This document shows, piece by piece, positions 38,787 to 49,652 of a DNA stretch of 64,000 nt. A program made the translations under genes and the position numbers. This stretch comes from Eubacteriaceae bacterium. Its GTDB lineage: Bacteria; Bacillota; Clostridia; Eubacteriales; Eubacteriaceae. Position 1 is the stretch's first letter. The number at the start of each line of letters is the position of its first letter. Where the stretch lies: NCBI GenBank assembly GCA_017405085.1, contig JAFRBB010000069.1, positions 1 to 64,000 on the forward strand, in the 5' to 3' direction. The notes under the pieces were generated by a model. That model was given only the letters and a program-made list of their open reading frames with translations. It did no database searches and was not told the origin of the DNA.

Positions 38787-41186
38787 TTACATAGAACGTT
38801 TTTTATACAGGACGCGAATGGAGTTTAAAACACACAGAATCGAAACACCGGTGTCGGCAAAAACCGCAAACCACATATTCGCAATTCCCATAAAGCCCAA
38901 AATCATGACAATGGCTTTGACACCCAGGGCAAAGACAATGTTCATCACCGCAATGCGATTGGTCTGTTTGGCAATGTCTATGGAAGTCGGAAGAGCTTTG
39001 AGATCGGTATTCATGAAGACGACGTCCGCTGCTTCAATGGCTGCGTCTGCGCCGCTGCCCATGGCAGCTCCGACATCGGCGCCGGCCAAAACCGGAGCGT
39101 CGTTAATACCGTCACCGACAAACATGACAGCGCCGACTTCTTCGCGCACTTTTTTGAGAGCATTCAGCTTATCCTGAGGCAAAAGTTTTGCCATCACTTT
39201 GGCGATGCCGGTCTGTTCAGCAACCGCTTTCGCGTTTTCTTCGGTATCACCGGTGAGCATAACTGTCGTGACGCCATTCTTATGAAGAGCAGAAACCGCA
39301 TCCTTTGCGTCGGCTTTAATGGTATCCGCGATGATAATGGCACCGGCAAATTTTCCGTCTTTTGCGATATAAACCGGAGTTCCGTAAGAAGGAACGGCTT
39401 CTTTCGGAATAGCAATGTTGTTTTGCGCCATTAATTTTTCATTTCCGGCAAGCACAACTTCGCCGCCAACATCAGCCTGAATACCATGACCGGCAATTTC
39501 CTGAACGTTTTCCGCGTTGGCAATTTGTAATTTCTTTTCTTCCGCCGCTTTGACAATACTTTCACCGATGGGATGTGTTGAGAATTTTTCACAAGCCGCA
39601 CAAACGGCAAGCAATTCATCATCAGCCATTCCGGATGTCGAAACAATGTGCTGAACCACAAAGTTACCTTTGGTGATAGTCCCTGTTTTATCCATAACAA
39701 CGGCTTTGACATTATTGAGGGCTTCAAGGGAAATCCCGCCCTTAAAGAGAATGCCGAGCTTAGATCCGGCACCGATACCCGAGAAATAAGCAAGGGGTAC
39801 CGAAAGGACCAAAGCACAGGGACAGGAAATAACGAGGAAGCTAAGAGCGGTATAAATCCATTTATACCAATCTCCACCAAAGAATAACGGCGGAACAATC
39901 GCGGTTAAAAGTGCCACTACCACAACAAAGGGGGTATAAACACGAGAGAATCTGGTAATAAAACGATCCATTTTCGGTTTGGTCGCGGCAGCGTTTTCCA
40001 CGGAGTCCAAGATCCGGGTAACCATTGATTCTTCGAGAGGTTTTTCGACGCGGACCGTCAATGTTCCGCTGGTATTGACACAACCGGAAACCACTTCATC
40101 CCCGACTTGCACCTTCACGGGAACCGGTTCTCCCGTAACGGGAGAGGTATCAATTCGGCTTTCGCCTTCCGTTACAATACCGTCAAGCGGCACACGATCG
40201 CCGGGTCGAACAATAACCAGATCGCCGACTTGCGCGTTTTCAGAGGGAATGACTTCGACTTCCCCATTTTCGTTCACTAAATTGACAACTTCGGGGCGCA
40301 TATCCGCCGCTTCCATAATTTGATCGCGGCTTCTGTCCGATGCCATTTCTTCGAAATATTCACCGATACGATAAAACAGCATAACGCCCACAGCTTCGGG
40401 ATATTCTTGGATGCAGAAAGCGCCAATTGTCGCGACGGACATTAGAAAGTTTTCATCAAAGAACTGTCCTTTGAAAATCATCCGAATGGCGGTAAGCACA
40501 ATCGGTGCGCCGACAAAGAAATAAGCAATAAAGTACATGGGAATAGCCATAGCTTCATTTCCCATGAAATGTTCCAAAATAAGGCCAATGACAAAAAGAA
40601 TACCGCCGATAATCATTTGATGTTTGGCATAGGCTTCACCGAAAAACCATTCTTGCAAGAAAGGCTTCTTTTCTTCGACCTTGGCGGCGCGGGCTTTTGC
40701 CACGGAACGCTCTCTTTGGCACACAACGCATCCCGGTTCAAGCTTATCTGCCACTTCGTTGACAATGTTCAAAAAACGATCCGGTTGTTCTGCACGAATA
40801 CGAACCTGTTCGGTAGCGTAAACAACGCTGACATCCTCGATGCCTTCAATTTTAGAAAGACCCCGTTCGATCTTGCTGGCGCAATCTGCGCAGTCGAGAC
40901 CTTTAATATCATAAATCTTCTGGGTCACCCCTTTGGGATCCGGGGGACATTCACATTCGTCCATTGGTTCATCACACTCTGCGCAGATAATGTGATGAGC
41001 ATCCATTTTTGATTCATCCAACTCCACTTCTTCATGATCATGGTCATGTTCATGATTGTGATCGTGGTTATGGTCGTGATCATGGTCATGTTCATGATTG
41101 TGATCGTGGTTATGGTCGTGATCGTGATCATGAGTATGTTCATGGTCATGTTCGTGAGCTGCTGTTTTGTCCTTTAACTCAGCCAT
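38787..41186 (-). CDS. Heavy-metal P-type ATPase (Zn/Cd/Pb type) with His-rich N-terminus
   Basis: 799 residues from the ATG at 41186 (AAGGAGAATAATT). The first 55 residues are almost pure His-Asp/Asn repeats, followed by a small CAEC...CECPP cysteine patch and one HMA domain with GLDCADCASKIE. Transmembrane CPC motif in ISCPCALVLS, DKTGTIT phosphorylation site, and MFVGDGINDAPVLA hinge are intact; CPC plus GLDCADC favours Zn2+/Cd2+/Pb2+ export (ZntA/CadA group) over copper. An ArsR-type palindrome overlaps the transcription start region. No regulator gene of that family is adjacent. Confidence 0.94.
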   Translation of the reverse strand: MAELKDKTAAHEHDHEHTHDHDHDHNHDHNHEHDHDHDHNHDHNHEHDHDHEEVELDESKMDAHHIICAECDEPMDECECPPDPKGVTQKIYDIKGLDCADCASKIERGLSKIEGIEDVSVVYATEQVRIRAEQPDRFLNIVNEVADKLEPGCVVCQRERSVAKARAAKVEEKKPFLQEWFFGEAYAKHQMIIGGILFVIGLILEHFMGNEAMAIPMYFIAYFFVGAPIVLTAIRMIFKGQFFDENFLMSVATIGAFCIQEYPEAVGVMLFYRIGEYFEEMASDRSRDQIMEAADMRPEVVNLVNENGEVEVIPSENAQVGDLVIVRPGDRVPLDGIVTEGESRIDTSPVTGEPVPVKVQVGDEVVSGCVNTSGTLTVRVEKPLEESMVTRILDSVENAAATKPKMDRFITRFSRVYTPFVVVVALLTAIVPPLFFGGDWYKWIYTALSFLVISCPCALVLSVPLAYFSGIGAGSKLGILFKGGISLEALNNVKAVVMDKTGTITKGNFVVQHIVSTSGMADDELLAVCAACEKFSTHPIGESIVKAAEEKKLQIANAENVQEIAGHGIQADVGGEVVLAGNEKLMAQNNIAIPKEAVPSYGTPVYIAKDGKFAGAIIIADTIKADAKDAVSALHKNGVTTVMLTGDTEENAKAVAEQTGIAKVMAKLLPQDKLNALKKVREEVGAVMFVGDGINDAPVLAGADVGAAMGSGADAAIEAADVVFMNTDLKALPTSIDIAKQTNRIAVMNIVFALGVKAIVMILGFMGIANMWFAVFADTGVSILCVLNSIRVLYKKRSM
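41041..41124 (-). repeat. 42-bp tandem duplication in the His-rich tail
   Basis: Two adjoining copies with a period of 42 bases (41041-41082 and 41083-41124), encoding 14-residue units of the type HNHDHNHEHDHDHD. It points to recent expansion of the metal-binding tail. Confidence 0.8.
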
Positions 41187-41217
41187 AATTATTCTCCTTG
41201 AGATTTGTATTTTTGCA

Positions 41218-41241
41218 ATATATGAACTTTTGTTCATATAT
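41218..41241 (-). promoter_or_regulatory. Palindromic ArsR/SmtB-type operator
   Basis: ATATATGAAC and GTTCATATAT form perfect 10-base arms around TTTT, just downstream of the -10 of the ATPase promoter. The form TGAAC-N4-GTTCA is like that of metal-sensing ArsR/SmtB repressors. Confidence 0.7.
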
Positions 41242-41244
41242 CAT

Positions 41245-41272
41245 ATTATAGTGATAATTCTATTTTTGTCAA
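41245..41272 (-). promoter_or_regulatory. Promoter of the P-type ATPase gene
   Basis: TTGACA and TATAAT, 16 bases apart, on the minus strand; the operator starts four bases further on. Confidence 0.8.
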
Positions 41273-41292
41273 CCCTTTTAAAGATTTTTATT

Positions 41293-42651
41293 TTAAGCAA
41301 AATCAAATTCATGAGAATGCTTTCCGCATATTTCAATTTCTTTATATCTCTGCATGATTATTCCGTCATATATTGTCAATGCAACCGCAGAGACAATCCA
41401 TGTTAAAGGATAACTGACATAGATAATCGCAGGATCATCAATGAACATTTTTAATATTAAAATCCATGAGACGCGCAACAGACACATACACGTCATCGAA
41501 ATGATCATGGGAACAAATGTTTTGCCCAAGCCTCTTAAATAACCGATAATTGTTTGATTATAAGCATAGATGAAATACAACGGCACAACCCAATAAATTT
41601 GTTTGACACCGTAACCGATAACCGTTTCGTCCGAGGTAAACATACCGATGATCTGATGTGAAAACAGAGCGATCACCCCGCAAAACACGATGGTAATGAT
41701 GATGTTCATGAAAAGCGCGATACGCTTTCCTTCTTTGACACGCTTCCAGTTTCCGGCACCGATGTTTTGACCGACAAAAGATGAAATCGCCATTGAAATC
41801 GCATCGATCGGCATGAAAATAAATCCATCAATTTTCATATACGATGTAAAACCGGCCATAATCGTTATTCCAAAGGTGTTAATTTGAGATTGAACGACAA
41901 GATTCGCAAAACAAACCAAAACAGATTGAAAACCTGCCGGCAGACCGATGGAAGCGATTTTTTTAAAGGTTTTTAAATTTAAACGGACGCGGCTTAGTAT
42001 AAGTTTATAAACATCGGAAGTGCGCATCATACGGACAATCACAAGGACCGCCGCAGCTAATTGCGCAAGAGATGTCGCGGCTGCAGCACCGCCGACACCG
42101 AAGGGTAAAACAGCGACGAATAACAAATCGAGGACAATATTGACAAAAACAGTAACCGCCAGGTAGATAAGCGGTGTTTTTGAATCTCCTACAGCTCTTA
42201 AAATACCGCTGCCCACGTTATAAATCATCATCGGAATCATACTTAGAAAGTAGATTCGAATATACGTTACGGCAAAAGGCATTCCTTCTTTGGGTATCTG
42301 CATCCAGCCAAGGAAGGTCGGTGCGAATACAATACCGATAAGCATTAAAGCACCGCCGGCAATCACACTCATCGCAATGGACGTATGAACAAGCTTGTCA
42401 ATGGCTTGACGGTCCTTAGCGCCATAAGCTTGAGACACCAAAACGCTTGCACCCTGAGATAAACCGATAAAAAAATAAATCATAAAGGTGACAAGCAACG
42501 ATGAAGATCCCACCGCTGCCAATGCCACCGACCCAAGCGCTCTGCCAACAATGACGGCATCAACCGTGTTATAAAGCTGCTGCAAAAGATTTGAGATCAT
42601 TAACGGTATCGCAAAGGCAATGATAATTTTTTTGATATTTCCCGTTGTCAT
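41293..42651 (-). CDS. MATE-family efflux transporter
   Basis: 452 residues, 12 membrane segments. IAFAIPLMISNLLQQLYNTVDAVIVGRALG is the family start pattern and GLSQGASVLVSQAYGAKD the first-repeat motif. Upstream is an imperfect copy of the palindrome seen before the P-type ATPase, so both may answer to one regulator. A GAGGAGGACATC box precedes the ATG. Confidence 0.88.
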   Translation of the reverse strand: MTTGNIKKIIIAFAIPLMISNLLQQLYNTVDAVIVGRALGSVALAAVGSSSLLVTFMIYFFIGLSQGASVLVSQAYGAKDRQAIDKLVHTSIAMSVIAGGALMLIGIVFAPTFLGWMQIPKEGMPFAVTYIRIYFLSMIPMMIYNVGSGILRAVGDSKTPLIYLAVTVFVNIVLDLLFVAVLPFGVGGAAAATSLAQLAAAVLVIVRMMRTSDVYKLILSRVRLNLKTFKKIASIGLPAGFQSVLVCFANLVVQSQINTFGITIMAGFTSYMKIDGFIFMPIDAISMAISSFVGQNIGAGNWKRVKEGKRIALFMNIIITIVFCGVIALFSHQIIGMFTSDETVIGYGVKQIYWVVPLYFIYAYNQTIIGYLRGLGKTFVPMIISMTCMCLLRVSWILILKMFIDDPAIIYVSYPLTWIVSAVALTIYDGIIMQRYKEIEICGKHSHEFDFA

Positions 42652-42679
42652 GATGTCCTCCTCTTCAAAACATTTCTTT

Positions 42680-42734
42680 TATATGTTTTATTGTTCATAT
42701 AATTATATGTTATCAATTATAGGTTCTATGTCAA
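42680..42734 (-). promoter_or_regulatory. Possible promoter and operator of the third MATE gene
   Basis: TTGACA at 42734-42729 on the minus strand is followed at 16-17 bases by a weak -10 (TAACAT). Just downstream TATATGAAC, four bases, then AACATATA form an imperfect palindrome that shares its left arm with the operator at 41218-41241. Confidence 0.4.
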
Positions 42735-42794
42735 GCATAAATAACGGGAATCCTGTCATTTTTTCTAAAATCGCCATATTACATGAAAGGCAAG

Positions 42795-42832
42795 GATAAA
42801 AAAAGCACGTCTGCAGCAAAGGGCAAACGTGC
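42795..42832 (-). terminator. Terminator after the EIIA-Glc gene
   Basis: GCACGT and ACGTGC pair around a 16-base loop with partial inner pairing, followed by TTTTTTT on the minus strand. It likely ends the riboswitch-led operon. Confidence 0.8.
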
Positions 42833-42844
42833 GGAAAAACAAGG

Positions 42845-43336
42845 TTATTGTTGAAAACGCAAAATTTCGTCTTTGCCGGCAGCAACGGTAATATCGACAT
42901 TTTCGGTACTGCGGTAATTGCCTTTCGTATTAATGACAATCATCGTGATTGGATTAATATTATTTTCAACAAGAAGCGCAACATCAACGTCTAACACAGG
43001 CTCCCCTGCTTTAACGCTTCCGCTTTTGAGGACATGAAATCCCCTGCCTTCCATCACAATGGCTTCCAATCCTACATGTACCAAAATCTCAATGCCATTT
43101 TCTCCTCTGATTACAAAGGCATTGTACGCATCAGTTGCGGATTCGCATTCACCATCCATAGGTGCCAAAACAGTCATTAGCGAGGTATCGTTGGGAATGA
43201 TTGCGACGCCATCTCCAAGCACACGAGATGAAAACACTTGATCCGGAACCTGTTCTAAAGGAACAACCTGTCCATCAATGGGTGCGACCACCGAAACGAC
43301 AGGATCTGTCTTCTTTTTAAATAATCCAAATGCCAT
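42845..43336 (-). CDS. PTS EIIA-Glc-type protein lacking one active-site histidine
   Basis: 163 residues, a free-standing glucose-type EIIA domain. The phospho-acceptor H87 lies in IEILVHVGLEA, but the second active-site histidine (H75 of the E. coli protein, in NHAFSIE) is Asn72 here (YNAFVIR). In E. coli that His is needed to pass the phosphate on to EIIB. So this protein may take phosphate from HPr without feeding a sugar transporter, which would fit a regulatory role. It starts 45 bases after the last ABC transporter gene with no promoter visible between, hence probably the same operon. No EIIB or EIIC is near. Confidence 0.85.
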   Translation of the reverse strand: MAFGLFKKKTDPVVSVVAPIDGQVVPLEQVPDQVFSSRVLGDGVAIIPNDTSLMTVLAPMDGECESATDAYNAFVIRGENGIEILVHVGLEAIVMEGRGFHVLKSGSVKAGEPVLDVDVALLVENNINPITMIVINTKGNYRSTENVDITVAAGKDEILRFQQ

Positions 43337-43381
43337 CTTATTCTCCTTCCTGCTCCGTTTCGAGCGTCAACCCTGAATTGG

Positions 43382-44368
43382 TCAAGATGCGTTTTGCATT
43401 GATGAAACTTCTTTAACTAAATGACATGCGCATTGATGTCCGGGAGCCACAGTTTTAAGTTTTGGCTTTTCTTTGCGGCAAATATCCTGACAAACCGAGC
43501 ATCTGTCGGCAAAAGGACATCCCGGCGGCAGATCAATCGGACTTGGAATTTCACCGGGAATCGTCTTGATCTCCTGTGTAAAATCCATATTCAGGTCAAA
43601 GATCGATTCGATCAAAGATTTTGTATAGGGATGGGCAGCACCGCCAACGACCAGATTTTCTCCCGGCAGCAATTCGACAATATTGCCGAGATACATGACA
43701 GCCGCGCGATGCGCGAATTGGGCAACCAATGAAAAATCATGGCAAATAAAGACGATGGCAATGCCTTTTTCTTTTTGAAGCTTAACCACTAAAGTTAAGA
43801 TACTTTTTTGAACGGATACGTCAAGGGCGGATGTCGCCTCATCAAGAACAATGACATCGGGATTAAGCGTTAGCGCTCTGGCAATCCCAACGCGCTGTCT
43901 TTGTCCACCGCTCATGCTGTGAGGATATCTGTCGGAAAATGATTCAGGAAGCTCCACCATTTTAAGATACTCTTTGGCGACAGCGTCTTTTTCTTTTGCG
44001 GATATTCTGCCGAAGTTGAGCAAAGGTTCGCAAATGATATCCCGAATGCGCATTTTCGGATTGAAGGCTCTTGCCGGATCCTGGAAAACCATTTGAATAT
44101 TCTGGCGTTCCAATCGGCTTGCCTCACCTTTTAATTTGGTAATATCTTTTCCGTTTAGATAGATTTCACCGGAAGTGGGATCGTGGAGTTTTAAAATAGT
44201 GCGGGCAAATGTACTTTTCCCGCAACCGCTTTCTCCGACGATTGCGACGGTTTCTCCGCGGAAAAACTGGATGGAAATATTATCACAGGCTGTCAGGGTT
44301 TTCCCCCCGTCCGCAGGGAAACATTTGGTTAGATTTTTTGTTTCAAGAACTGGTTGTCGATCAGACAT
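43382..44368 (-). CDS. Family-5 ABC importer ATP-binding protein (OppF/NikE type)
   Basis: 328 residues from the ATG at 44368 (GGGAGGCGAG box); the frame upstream lies in the preceding gene. Walker A GESGCGKST, signature MSGGQRQR, Walker B VIVLDEATSALD. The C-terminal Opp/Dpp domain has the cysteine-rich segment CPFADRCSVCQDIC, which in some relatives binds an Fe-S cluster. Pairs with the OppD-like protein just upstream (8-base overlap). Confidence 0.92.
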   Translation of the reverse strand: MSDRQPVLETKNLTKCFPADGGKTLTACDNISIQFFRGETVAIVGESGCGKSTFARTILKLHDPTSGEIYLNGKDITKLKGEASRLERQNIQMVFQDPARAFNPKMRIRDIICEPLLNFGRISAKEKDAVAKEYLKMVELPESFSDRYPHSMSGGQRQRVGIARALTLNPDVIVLDEATSALDVSVQKSILTLVVKLQKEKGIAIVFICHDFSLVAQFAHRAAVMYLGNIVELLPGENLVVGGAAHPYTKSLIESIFDLNMDFTQEIKTIPGEIPSPIDLPPGCPFADRCSVCQDICRKEKPKLKTVAPGHQCACHLVKEVSSMQNAS

Positions 44369-45143
44369 AGCGCTCGCCTCCCATCGTCGGAACCGCACTT
44401 AAGAGATTTTTGGTATACAGATTTTGAGGGTGATTTAATATTGCGTCTCGATCGCCGGATTCGACAATAAAACCATTGCGCATTACAATGATCTGATCGG
44501 ACATGTAAGCGGCAAGGCCGAGATTATGCGTCACGCAAATGATGCTTTGATGATATTTTTTGTTGATTTCCATCATTTGGCGCACGATCTGCGCCTGCGT
44601 TGTCACATCAAGGGCGCTTGTCGGCTCATCGGCCAACAGCAATTCGGGATTAAACGTCATTGCCATCGCGATGCCGACACGTTGTTTCATACCGCCGGAG
44701 AGCTCAAATGCATAGGAATTCATCACGCGGTCCGGATCGGGAAGACGCATGTTGGATAACATTTCCACCGCTCTGTTATAGGCGGCTTGTTTGTCCATTT
44801 TATCATGAACTTGAATGTATTCAACATATTGATCGCCGATTTTTTTGATCGGGTTAATCATGGCGCCGGAATCCTGAAAGATCATGGCCATCTTGTCGCC
44901 GCGAAGTTTTAACCATTCCTCACGACTATTGGACAAGACCGATTGACCGTTAAGCAGGATATCCCCCGCAGAAACGCGGCCGTCCCCGGGAAGAAGTCCC
45001 AGGGCGGCGCGTATCACAGTGGTTTTACCACTTCCGCTTTCTCCAACAATACTGACAATCTCGCCGCTTTCAACCTTCATATTAAATTTTCTGACAATTA
45101 CATTTTGTCCATATTGAATGGTTACATCTTTGAACTCGAGCAT
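44361..45143 (-). CDS. Family-5 ABC importer ATP-binding protein (OppD/NikD type)
   Basis: 260 residues, short for OppD (usually about 330) and lacking the C-terminal cysteine-rich extension, as in the nickel-type NikD. Walker A GESGSGKTT, signature ELSGGMKQR, Walker B LLADEPTSALD. Acts as a heterodimer with the next gene. Confidence 0.91.
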   Translation of the reverse strand: MLEFKDVTIQYGQNVIVRKFNMKVESGEIVSIVGESGSGKTTVIRAALGLLPGDGRVSAGDILLNGQSVLSNSREEWLKLRGDKMAMIFQDSGAMINPIKKIGDQYVEYIQVHDKMDKQAAYNRAVEMLSNMRLPDPDRVMNSYAFELSGGMKQRVGIAMAMTFNPELLLADEPTSALDVTTQAQIVRQMMEINKKYHQSIICVTHNLGLAAYMSDQIIVMRNGFIVESGDRDAILNHPQNLYTKNLLSAVPTMGGERYV

Positions 45144-45208
45144 GATTTTCTCCGTCAGTCATTTGTTTTCAAATAATTACTGTTTTACTGATTTCTTTTG
45201 ACTCGTTT

Positions 45209-46798
45209 TTACTTAGGTGCGATTTCGTTGGTGATCCAGTAGTAGTCAAATGTGTTGATGTTGGCGTTCTGGACGCTTGCTTGCGAACACATATTGGATT
45301 TGTAATATCCGTGAACGAGAACAGCATTGTCATCAACTAAGTACTGCTGCAGTTGGGTGATTTTTTCTTTACGGGCAGCGGTATCTTTTTCGGTTTTAAG
45401 TTCTTCGTAAACTTTGTTGTACTGGTCGTTATTGTATGCGCAATAGTTGGCTTCGGATTTACCATACCAGTTTTCGAGGAACCCATAGGGGTCGCCTGTC
45501 TGAGCGGTCATCCAGTTGGAGTCGCACAGGTCATAGTTTCCGGCAACCATTTCGTTCCATTCGGTATCGGCATCAGTTGCTTTAACGGTAGCTTTGATTC
45601 CGATTTTTTCCATGGAAGCGGTGCAAGCTTCTGCAAATTCCTGGAGGTTACGGCTGCTGTAGGTGATGTATCTGAGTTCGATTTTGGAACCGTCTTTGGC
45701 TTCTCTGTAGCCGTCACCGTCTTTATCTTTGATGCCAGCATCGTCAAGCACTTTTTTAGCGCCTTCAACATCATATTTGGGCAGGTTTTGCAGATCTTTT
45801 GTTCCGAAATCAAGACTGTCGGGAAGGACGCCATATCCAGGTGAATACATTCCGCCGACGGTTTTGTTGCAGAGGGTATCATTATCCATCGCCATAATGA
45901 TGGCTTTACGGAGATCAGCGTCTTTGAGAGCGCCTTTTTGGTTCATATAAGCAAAACCGGTACGGATGGATGTCGCTTCGCTGACGTTGTATTTGGACGT
46001 ATCGCCCTTGATTTCGGATAAGTCTGTGGCAGTCGTGATGTTTTCGACCACGTTGGCATCGCCGTTTTTGAGAGCCATCGCTTTGGTGGAACTGTCATCC
46101 ATGAAGGAAATCTGGAGTTTGGCGTAAGGCACGTTACCGTTCCAGTAGTTTTCGTTGCGAATGAGCGAAACGGAAGAACCTTCAGTCAAGCTTTCAACGG
46201 CATAGGGGCCGGTACCGATGGGGTTTTTGGCATAATCTTTTGTGGTATCGGGGTTGATGATGACGAAGAAAGGATTAGCAAGCGCTGCGGGAACATCGAG
46301 ATATGTTGCGGCGTCAACGTTCAAAATGATGTTGCCATTTCCATCCGCTTCAAGTTTTTTGATACTTTCTTCGGGAAGAATGGTTGACGGTGTGGATGTG
46401 TATTTTTTGTCTTTTTCATTGGTGTACATTCTCTTGATGGATTTAACCGCGATGTCCGCCGTCAAATCGGAACCGTCAGAGAATTTAACGCCGTCGCGAA
46501 TGTGGATTTTATATTCGGTTTTGGCATCGTTAACTTCGTATTTGTCGCAAAGATTTTCGACAACGGAGCCGTCTTCTTTAAATTTGAAGAGGCATTCCCC
46601 AACACCGTAACGGGTGCAGGCCCATGCTGCGTTGGTCATTGCGGAGGGATCGAGGGAATCGGAATAATTTTGGCAACCGAATTTCAGTGTTTCATTCGAT
46701 TTGGAAGCACCACCGCCGCAACCGGCAAGCAACGTCACGGAAAGCACAACCGCAATCAAGGCTGCAATCGCGAGAGACAGATAACTTTTCTTTTTCAT
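45209..46798 (-). CDS. Family-5 substrate-binding lipoprotein (Opp/Nik type)
   Basis: 529 residues. Lipoprotein signal with LLAGCGGG, Cys at about residue 26. SBP_bac_5 family: DNDTLCNKTVGGMYSPGYG and NPIGTGPYAVES are typical. The opening segment with WACTRYGVGECLFKF resembles nickel/metal-type members more than classical OppA, but sequence by eye does not settle the ligand. The cobalamin riboswitch in front of the operon suggests cobalt, a cobalt chelate or a corrinoid-related compound; that is inference. Confidence 0.9.
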   Translation of the reverse strand: MKKKSYLSLAIAALIAVVLSVTLLAGCGGGASKSNETLKFGCQNYSDSLDPSAMTNAAWACTRYGVGECLFKFKEDGSVVENLCDKYEVNDAKTEYKIHIRDGVKFSDGSDLTADIAVKSIKRMYTNEKDKKYTSTPSTILPEESIKKLEADGNGNIILNVDAATYLDVPAALANPFFVIINPDTTKDYAKNPIGTGPYAVESLTEGSSVSLIRNENYWNGNVPYAKLQISFMDDSSTKAMALKNGDANVVENITTATDLSEIKGDTSKYNVSEATSIRTGFAYMNQKGALKDADLRKAIIMAMDNDTLCNKTVGGMYSPGYGVLPDSLDFGTKDLQNLPKYDVEGAKKVLDDAGIKDKDGDGYREAKDGSKIELRYITYSSRNLQEFAEACTASMEKIGIKATVKATDADTEWNEMVAGNYDLCDSNWMTAQTGDPYGFLENWYGKSEANYCAYNNDQYNKVYEELKTEKDTAARKEKITQLQQYLVDDNAVLVHGYYKSNMCSQASVQNANINTFDYYWITNEIAPK

Positions 46799-46836
46799 AA
46801 AACGTTCTCCTTTTCTAAAGAAATATAAGGTTTATC

Positions 46837-47664
46837 TTAACTTCTGGGATCGAGTATATCTCGCAGACTGTCTCCCAAAAGATTAAAGATCGATACAACG
46901 ATGGCAATCGCAAGACCCGGGAATAAAATCAACCAGGGATATGCTGTAATGTACTGTCTGCCTTCATTGAGCATCAGGCCCCATTCGGGAATCGGCGGTT
47001 GAGCGCCAAAACCCAAGAACGAAAGACCGGCCAACTCGAGCATCATGGCCCCGATATCGGTTGTCGCTGTAATCACAAGGGTCGGCAGCACATTGGGCAA
47101 CATGTATTGTCTTAAAATATAGATGACTTTTGATCCCGTTGTAACCGCCGCGTAGACATAATCCTCATGCCTGATTTTCAGCACCAAGCTTCTGGCAAGT
47201 CTCGCATACTTGGTCCAGCTGACGACAACAAGCGCGATGATGGCGTTTTGGATGCTGGCACCCATAATACCGGCAACGGCAATGGCCAAAACCATCCCCG
47301 GGAAGGAAATCATCATATCGGCGATACGCATGATGACGGTGTCAACCCATCCGCCAAAATAGCCGGCAACGATACCCAAAACGGTTCCGATAACCAAAAT
47401 GGCTAAAACGAGAATGAGTGCGGCCGGAACGGAAATTCGCGTGCCGTAAATGACGCGGGACAACACATCCCGTCCGAGTCTGTCGGTCCCGAAAAGATGA
47501 CCAGGACCCGGCGCTTGAAAGGCTGATCCCATATCGCTGTAGGTAGGATCTTGCCAAGCCAAAACCGGCGCGAGCAGCGCGATCAGAAGAATCAGCACGG
47601 CCAAAGCCAAAAGAATCGAAAACCCTTTATTTTCTTTTATAAAACGAATTGCTTTTTCCATCAT
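46837..47664 (-). CDS. Family-5 ABC importer permease (OppC/NikC type)
   Basis: 275 residues, about six membrane segments. GTDRLGRDVLSRVIYGTRIS is the OppC-type hallmark and the EAA loop reads ELAGLSFLGFGAQPPIPEWG. Start and stop with the upstream permease overlap by one base (TAATG). Confidence 0.93.
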   Translation of the reverse strand: MMEKAIRFIKENKGFSILLALAVLILLIALLAPVLAWQDPTYSDMGSAFQAPGPGHLFGTDRLGRDVLSRVIYGTRISVPAALILVLAILVIGTVLGIVAGYFGGWVDTVIMRIADMMISFPGMVLAIAVAGIMGASIQNAIIALVVVSWTKYARLARSLVLKIRHEDYVYAAVTTGSKVIYILRQYMLPNVLPTLVITATTDIGAMMLELAGLSFLGFGAQPPIPEWGLMLNEGRQYITAYPWLILFPGLAIAIVVSIFNLLGDSLRDILDPRS

Positions 47665-48602
47665 TACGCCCCCAATCTCACACGCGGATCAAAGAAATTA
47701 TAGGAAGTGTCAACAATGAGATTGATGACCATATAGATAAGCGCAATCCAAAGCACATATCCCTGAATCAGCGGATAATCATATGAGGTGATTGCTTGAA
47801 CCGCCAAATTACCGAGTCCGGGATAAGAGAAAAGCACTTCGACAACGGCAGTCCCGCCCAAAAGCGAACCCAGCGACAAGCCGAGCAATGTGATGAGCGG
47901 AAGCGCGGCATTGGGAAAAACATGCTTCCATAAGATTGCTTTTTCGGATAATCCTCTGGCTCTCGCGCCGACCACATAATCCTGATGGAGTTCTTCAAGC
48001 ACCGCCGTTCGAACCTGACGCGCGTATTTGGCTGACATCGGAAATGCCAAAGTGAGCGCCGGCATAATCATACTGGTCAGTCCGGTATCCGGCGACGTGA
48101 CAGGCAGCAAATGAAGTTGAAGGGCAAGCACTAGCATCAAGATCATCCCAAACCAAAAGTTCGGAATGGAGACGCCCAGGAATGTCCAACCCCGCACCAG
48201 ATAATCAGGCCATTGGTTTTGCTTCACCGCGGAGACCATGCCGAAAGGCACAGCGATGATGATCATCAAAATCAATGAAAAGAACGCAAGTTTTAAGGTC
48301 GGCCACAGCCTTTGAAGCAAAACGGAAACAACGGGCTTATGCATGGAAAAGGAATTTCCGAAATCTCCGCGCAGGCAGTTTCCGAGCCATGTGCCGTATT
48401 GAACGATAAACGGCTTGTTGAGGCCCATTTCTTCACGCACTTCTTCAACTTCCGAGGCTGTCGGCGAAATTCCCTGAGACGTAAAACTTGCCAAAGCAGG
48501 ATCGCCCGGTGCCAAATAAGTCAGAGAAAAAGTCAGAAAACTGACACCCAAGAGCACAACAAGTATTTCAAGCACCCGTTTGACGACTGTTTTTACCTTC
48601 AA
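47664..48602 (-). CDS. Family-5 ABC importer permease (OppB/NikB type)
   Basis: 312 residues, about six membrane segments. FLTFSLTYLAPGDPA near the start and the EAA loop ARGLSEKAILWKHVFPNA are diagnostic, with SLGSLLGGTAVVEVLFSYPGLG after. A GGAGGAGGTTATTTG box precedes it. Confidence 0.93.
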   Translation of the reverse strand: MKVKTVVKRVLEILVVLLGVSFLTFSLTYLAPGDPALASFTSQGISPTASEVEEVREEMGLNKPFIVQYGTWLGNCLRGDFGNSFSMHKPVVSVLLQRLWPTLKLAFFSLILMIIIAVPFGMVSAVKQNQWPDYLVRGWTFLGVSIPNFWFGMILMLVLALQLHLLPVTSPDTGLTSMIMPALTLAFPMSAKYARQVRTAVLEELHQDYVVGARARGLSEKAILWKHVFPNAALPLITLLGLSLGSLLGGTAVVEVLFSYPGLGNLAVQAITSYDYPLIQGYVLWIALIYMVINLIVDTSYNFFDPRVRLGA

Positions 48603-48692
48603 ATAACCTCCTCCTTTTTTATATTATTTTTGAACGGCTCCGAAACCCCCACCTTCGGACGCCGACTCAAACGCAAAATTGGGTTTGATGCT

Positions 48693-49652
48693 TCATCGGT
48701 CTATGACACCGATGCAAGCCATCACATCATCTTCTAAGATATTGAGACTTTTGGTTTGATAGAGAATAACGCCGTCCGTTTCGGCTCGGCAGGTGTAAAT
48801 AACCTCACCGAAATAATTGTGAATTTCTCCGATCAAACTGCCTTTCGTCACATAAGTCCCTTTGTTCCAACGCGGATACCAAAGACCTCTTTGCGGCGAC
48901 ATTTGATAGATGCAGTCGGACAAAACAATGCCGTCCGTCGATGCCGCGTGTTTGCGATGCCTAAGCATACCGAGCCCGACCATGATGTTATATACATCGT
49001 TTTTCATCATGGTGGAATCCTCGGTATTGCGCTGGGACAAATTACCCCGCTCTATGAGAATCCCCGGTATACCTTCGGTGCCTGCCTGGTTATACAAGCC
49101 GTGAGTATACTCGTTTGAAACCACGATATAAGGTACATTGACGTCCTTTGCCATATCCAGGGATTTTTCCATGACTTCGGGCGCCGCGTTGCCTTGACAA
49201 TAGACATATGGCGTCAATTCCTCAAAATTATCGCCGCTGTGCATATCGATGCAATAATCGATCAGTGGGAAAACGTCATGCACAAACCAATGGGCATAAA
49301 TTTCGCTGATGCTACCTTCGGGATCACCCGGAAAGACACGGTTGAAATTTTTACCGTCTTCGTATGTGTAACTCATGGTGCGGTGCTCAAAGCCGCTTCG
49401 ATTGACCATCGGAAATATCAAAACCGTTCCGTTAATATGATCGGGATCAAATTCCCGGGCAAGCTCAACCGCACTTTGAATACCGATAAATTCCTGATTA
49501 TGAACACCGGCCGTGAGCATCAAAACCGGTCCTTCTGCAGAACCATTAACGACGACATAAGGAATTTCATAGGGATAATTGTCAATCGTCACGATGTTTT
49601 TAAATTTTTCGCCCGGTTGGATGTGGTGGCCGTCAAAATGAAAAGTTGTCAT
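48693..49652 (-). CDS. Aspartoacylase / succinylglutamate desuccinylase-family zinc hydrolase
   Basis: 319 residues, AstE/AspA (M14-like) family. Zinc ligands H51 and E54 in GVHNQE and H138 in DMHSGDN; the catalytic Glu is likely in PGILIERGN. These enzymes cleave an N-acyl group from amino acids or open amide-linked conjugates. First gene after the cobalamin riboswitch (AGGAGATTATTT box) and 90 bases before the ABC importer genes, so it may process the imported compound. No signal peptide, hence cytoplasmic. The substrate is unknown. Confidence 0.88.
   Translation of the reverse strand: MTTFHFDGHHIQPGEKFKNIVTIDNYPYEIPYVVVNGSAEGPVLMLTAGVHNQEFIGIQSAVELAREFDPDHINGTVLIFPMVNRSGFEHRTMSYTYEDGKNFNRVFPGDPEGSISEIYAHWFVHDVFPLIDYCIDMHSGDNFEELTPYVYCQGNAAPEVMEKSLDMAKDVNVPYIVVSNEYTHGLYNQAGTEGIPGILIERGNLSQRNTEDSTMMKNDVYNIMVGLGMLRHRKHAASTDGIVLSDCIYQMSPQRGLWYPRWNKGTYVTKGSLIGEIHNYFGEVIYTCRAETDGVILYQTKSLNILEDDVMACIGVIDR

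Follow-up and report, generated by a model that had tools for sequence, protein, structure and literature searches.

The locus raises the question of what an EIIA-Glc-family protein with Asn in place of its second active-site histidine does at the end of an ABC importer operon. The window denotes the whole stretch of DNA analyzed (64,000 nt), and residues of E. coli EIIA-Glc carry its own numbering. The genes concerned form a single-direction run in the order AspA-type deacylase, OppB, OppC, solute-binding protein, OppD, OppF, and EIIA. These genes and the features downstream of them are listed below.

48693..49652, minus strand: AstE/AspA-family deacylase, first gene of the run
47664..48602, minus strand: permease, Opp2B/NikB type (391.2 bits, cut-off 350)
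46837..47664, minus strand: permease, Opp2C/NikC type (327.4 bits, cut-off 300)
45209..46798, minus strand: extracellular solute-binding protein family 5 (profile matches)
44361..45143, minus strand: OppD-type ATPase (profile matches)
43382..44398, minus strand: OppF-type ATPase (ABC_tran and oligo_HPY), with its stop 45 nt before the EIIA start
42845..43336, minus strand: EIIA-Glc-family protein, 163 aa (ORF, profile matches, alignments, AlphaFold2 model)
42805..42832, minus strand: terminator-like hairpin, 10 pairs and then TTTTTTT (consensus match)
42707..42734, minus strand: promoter-like site, 10/12, with TG before the second hexamer (consensus match in the gap between EIIA and MATE)
41293..42651, minus strand: MATE-family transporter, whose relatives directly follow OppF in seven family genomes

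The placement of EIIA at the end of the operon, proposed in the preliminary description, agrees with the terminator-like hairpin, which begins 12 nt past the EIIA stop codon; consensus matches of this kind numbered 12 in the region, compared with 8.5 expected in shuffles. The site at 42707..42734 was the top-scoring minus-strand promoter-like match, in a region with 27 such matches and 12.2 expected in shuffles. Since only the permeases passed the Opp2B/Opp2C (nickel) cut-offs, nickel, a metal complex, and a peptide are all possible substrates; among the matches listed, neither the binding protein nor the ATPases reached an NCBIfam cut-off. The AspA-Opp run lies near a gene for a His-rich heavy-metal P-type ATPase in the window (38787-49652) and also in G033, G027, and G023 (loci L194, L278, and L279), a hint of metal transport by this importer.

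The EIIA ORF has an ATG start with GGAAGGAG, a good ribosome-binding site, six bases upstream. Its product matched PF00358 over residues 15-138 (E 2.9e-34; 117.9 bits, curated cut-off 27.2), passed TIGR00830 narrowly (105.4 bits, cut-off 97.5), and fell far under the cut-off of the Crr equivalog NF006962 (110.5 bits, cut-off 212). An AlphaFold2 model built from 18 sequences (mean pLDDT 83.2, pTM 0.79) matched 1f3g with a Z of 22.2 and an rmsd of 2.0 over 147 aligned residues at 31% identity, followed by six more EIIA-Glc entries; the highest-ranking match of another fold was an M23-type peptidase at Z 9.7. The predicted fold is the EIIA-Glc beta-sandwich.

In phmmer alignments to 1f3g (E. coli EIIA-Glc) and 3our, "tnHaf" stood over "ayNaf" and "fvHfgid" over "lvHvgle," and the block between the two active-site motifs was gap-free. 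Asn72 occupies the slot of H75 and H87 that of H90, and the same columns were obtained from MAFFT (187 rows) and from an 18-row alignment, so that both the Asn at the second histidine and the retained H90 equivalent were confirmed as first described. The change is wider than was then noted, with Ala70 at T73, Ala92 at T95, and Ile93 at V96. The sole remaining other histidine, H101, lay opposite E. coli K104 in the phmmer alignment. A shifted active-site histidine found no support in the three sequence alignments or in the structural match to 1f3g. The structure-based alignment with EIIA-Glc, proposed earlier as a check, gave that match at Z 22.2, which argues against a hidden register shift at Asn72.

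To place these substitutions among related proteins, EIIA segments were extracted from the collected loci with an HMM (E 1e-6, frames of at least 60 aa). The 191 segments came to 186 after substrings were dropped and to 185 others without the window's own copy. The set is uneven, as its members were chosen as best matches to the window protein and some matches were left out, and it contains nine near-identical rows from Peribacillus and its relatives. When the 185 others were aligned with MAFFT, His occupied the H75 column in 177 of 181 non-gap rows; Tyr stood there in three proteins of one genus (G335, G128, and G224) and Asn in one protein (G229). Natural H75-less EIIAs are rare in this sample, at 4/181, and all four were without Thr or Ser at position 73, a column in which one of these two residues was found in 174/180 rows. 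At T95, where the window protein has Ala, Thr was present in every other non-gap row (183/183). The H90 column held His in 181/182 rows, with Gln in G070; this EIIA (L274:689-1171) keeps H75 and has a GroEL-like gene beside it, as read by eye.

With the window's protein included, five of five H75-less EIIAs were without Thr or Ser at 73, compared with 2 of 176 that keep H75 (Fisher p 1.4e-8, uncorrected for kinship, with three of the five rows from one genus). The H75-less proteins span three lineages, the window's own and two others. Nineteen columns were at least 90% constant; the window protein departs from four of these (75, 95, 96, and 110), three of which fall on or next to the two active-site strands, and retains the other 15, including H90, D38, F41, and the loop glycines. 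Four departures was the top count among 181 rows, shared by two other rows.

At the DNA level, a pattern for an EIIA with a residue other than His at 75 matched two genomes, G128 and the one containing the window, in a phylum sample of 398; the pattern covers codons starting with A, G, or T, so that codons starting with C and indels are missed, and just 15 of the 398 genomes are from the window's class. The backwards control of this pattern gave zero matches among the genomes listed, and a stricter pattern with position 75 left free picked up 134 distinct segments of the collected loci. Two other EIIAs were observed in passing: an EIIA domain spread over two frames (L064; G036:C1:193474-193865), which looks like part of a disrupted fused EIIBCA gene, and a very divergent stand-alone EIIA (L076:1967-2329; G032:C103) with an end branch of 2.04 and both histidines kept.

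The occurrence of EIIA in this operon was examined through OppF, for which matches at E 1e-60 were found in 17 of 40 family genomes, the window's own included. In the eight best non-own matches (L168 to L175), no EIIA was found beside OppF, and EIIA was not seen as a usual member of this importer operon. OppF and MATE were adjacent without EIIA in all seven of the related loci holding both, G033 having the C-terminal part of MATE only. The EIIA gene was therefore most likely inserted in the window lineage. In L175 (G039), tblastn detected neither EIIA nor MATE in the roughly 0.6 kb after the OppF match, and a different MATE-like ORF was read there by eye. The contig of G023 (L279) ends within 0.2 kb of OppF.

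A maximum-likelihood tree of 181 rows, from which six of the 187 rows were left out for being under 100 aa, paired the window EIIA with the stand-alone EIIA of G029 (support 95/86), a placement made tentative by the small number of columns, a bootstrap that had not settled, and the length of the branches. The end branch of the window protein was 1.48, compared with a median of 0.41. The G029 protein (L068:7870-8409) resembles the window's in being stand-alone and is its nearest whole relative in the tree, at 42% identity, but it has both histidines, and its gene is flanked within a PTS operon by genes for an alpha-glucoside IIBC (701.6 bits against a cut-off of 607.3) and for a family-4 glycosidase. 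Over 43 N-terminal residues, the best row was a partial EIIA of G032, with 30 identical residues. The gene for this partial EIIA is preceded by those for a sucrose IIBC (560.3 bits against a cut-off of 559.3) and a sucrose-6-phosphate hydrolase (375.9, cut-off 356.4). The C-terminal half of the G032 EIIA, with residue 75, was sought and not found, as the contig ends inside the gene.

The statement of the preliminary description that no EIIB or EIIC was in sight held for the operon, with none among its genes or elsewhere on its contig, but not for the genome, which has three EIIBs of PF00367 type and three EIICs of PF02378 type. Three other EIIA domains were found there, each with both histidines and one of them stand-alone (C60), together with five HPr matches, one of which has an EI next to it (L006; recognized by eye). 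A genome without PTS proteins was ruled out by the EIIA, HPr, EI, EIIB, and EIIC matches. Because HPr, EI, and three other EIIAs with both histidines are present, sugar transport need not depend on the window EIIA. One EIIB stands by itself and has a partner in the sister species.

L141:8742-8978 (G000:C19): stand-alone 79-aa EIIB, Cys present, no EIIC gene beside it
L193:2765-3001 (G001, sister species): partner of this EIIB, 84% identical and of equal length

Between G000 and G001, dN/dS was about 0.05 (NG86) to 0.12 (YN00) for this EIIB and 0.02 for its YqxD-like neighbor gene. The best match of the EIIB was a sucrose IIBC, at 88.4 bits and far under the whole-protein cut-off. The EIIB gene is divergent from a phosphatase-ArsC gene, the G032 relative of that phosphatase-ArsC gene (50% identical) is divergent from the sucrose operon, and a BMC shell-domain gene lies downstream of the EIIB gene, detected as a profile match in G000 and seen in G001 as an unbroken frame. 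Most simply, a sucrose PTS would have disappeared from this locus, leaving its EIIB behind.

The explanation we prefer, tentatively and at a little less than an even chance, is that the window protein is a captured EIIA in which the phospho-acceptor histidine has been kept and the onward-transfer pocket has not, making it a phospho-accepting sensor or regulator with a closed outlet. It may sense or signal instead of passing phosphate to a sugar carrier, and the combined replacement of T73, H75, and T95 agrees with the earlier suggestion that the protein has ceased to be an ordinary phosphocarrier. An EIIA from a sucrose- or alpha-glucoside-type PTS operon would have been captured at the end of the Opp2/Nik-type importer operon in this lineage. 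H87 would still be phosphorylated by HPr~P, with onward transfer to an EIIB lost or slow, so that the phospho/dephospho state of the protein would report the PEP/PTS state and be read by another protein, most likely by another protein encoded in this operon or by the stand-alone EIIB.

Capture is supported by the EIIA-free OppF-MATE loci (7/7) and by the nearest relatives, which are EIIAs of PTS operons. The explanation is further supported by the clustering of the departures at the active-site strands while 15/19 near-constant columns are kept and by the presence of HPr, EI, and three other EIIAs with both histidines in the genome; the predicted EIIA-Glc fold and the joint losses at 75 and 73 (5/5 versus 2/176) point the same way. 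Binding of dephospho-EIIA-Glc to MalK and LacY and regulation of LacS by an EIIA-like domain are described in PMC10710835; by analogy, the cases of MalK and LacS would favor a regulatory EIIA here. Against this, the MalK-type regulatory domain is absent from both ATPases, which matched ABC_tran, oligo_HPY, and generic P-loop models (Pfam, E 0.001), and a single sequence of the window EIIA gene was found. Inducer exclusion of this importer, put forward in the preliminary description, is possible, but no positive evidence for it was obtained, given ATPases without that domain and no EIIA in the eight related loci. A bolder version, which we consider very unlikely, is that a sugar PTS was dismantled into a sugar-free relay, with the pocket-less EIIA under the Opp2/Nik-type operon and its former partner, the 79-aa EIIB, beside the microcompartment shell gene; PEP status would then control import and microcompartment genes without a sugar carrier.

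The other H75-less proteins are encoded at the following positions.

L115:8897-9391, L116:9713-10201, and L117:9848-10342: H75Y EIIAs of MurNAc-type PTS operons
L273:9334-9828: H75N EIIA of G229

The H75Y operon, found in three species of one genus, encodes a SIS-domain protein, EIIBC, MupG, and EIIA (families scanned in L115); the best model for its EIIBC was MurNAc IIBC, at 332.5 bits and under the cut-off of 516. An H75Y EIIA beside an EIIBC in a PTS operon means that loss of H75 alone does not show loss of phosphotransfer, and it suggests that H75 can be replaced, which counts against the sensor reading. It is also a ground for an alternative that we regard as unlikely, namely, a working EIIA in which Asn, or Tyr elsewhere, stands in for His75 and which feeds a stand-alone or fused EIIB. 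The stand-alone EIIB, with its Cys, its 84% identity to the G001 protein, and its low dN/dS, would be a possible recipient, and sucrose-type sequences are the best matches of both this EIIB and the N terminus of the window EIIA. However, T73 and T95 have been lost too, the stand-alone C60 EIIA with both histidines is on hand, and G001 keeps the EIIB while no EIIA match was found in its genome, which is 75% complete. In E. coli EIIA-Glc, moreover, H75 is required for transfer to EIIB, and the H75Q mutant is still phosphorylated and cannot hand the phosphate on. A V. vulnificus study terms the crrH75Q mutant the "dephospho-form" (PMC9040800), a label that disagrees with this view of H75Q and counts against a phospho-accepting sensor.

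The loss of T95 raises a related doubt, as H87 may not be phosphorylated at all. An unphosphorylated scaffold, binding its partner constitutively, would account for Ala at a position that is Thr in all 183 other non-gap rows, but the retention of H87 together with D38, F41, and the loop glycines leaves it hardly probable. The same substitution would also be expected of an EIIA copy that arrived in the operon and is now idle or degenerating, with its active site starting to go. We hold such decay to be somewhat unlikely: the long end branch, the presence of EIIA in this operon in one genome only among the loci checked, and the joint-highest number of departures from near-constant columns (4/19, tied with two of 181 rows) speak for it, whereas the full-length frame with its own ribosome-binding site and terminator-like hairpin, the fairly confident model matching 1f3g over 147 residues, and the 15/19 near-constant columns kept, H90 included, speak against it.

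The H75-less EIIAs offer natural material for determining whether transfer to EIIB truly depends on H75, the H75Y protein in its MurNAc-type PTS operon being the sharpest test, and for learning whether phospho-sensing EIIAs that serve non-sugar importers occur in nature. A literature search covering titles and the beginnings of abstracts, with few subscription journals, returned no natural H75-less EIIA and no EIIA gene in an Opp operon, and no passage on these active-site residues was found in PMC10942615 or PMC11077940.

Compared with known systems, the window EIIA shares with E. coli EIIA-Glc (Crr; 1F3G) the fold, as predicted here, the H90 equivalent, and the stand-alone form. It differs in that T73, H75, T95, and V96 of the E. 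coli protein are all replaced, its gene lies in an importer operon, and its score is under the Crr equivalog cut-off. The H75Y EIIAs have likewise lost the second histidine and Thr73 and kept H90, but they have Tyr instead of Asn, retain T95, and have EIIBC and MupG alongside. The G229 EIIA is likewise stand-alone, with Asn at 75, no Thr at 73, and H90 kept; in contrast to the window protein, it retains T95, its neighbors appear housekeeping-like by eye with no transporter directly beside it, and it is no neighbor of the window protein in the tree. The IIA domain of LacS is also an EIIA-like unit and one that regulates a transporter (PMC10710835); it is fused to a secondary transporter, whereas the window EIIA is a separate protein encoded beside an ABC importer.
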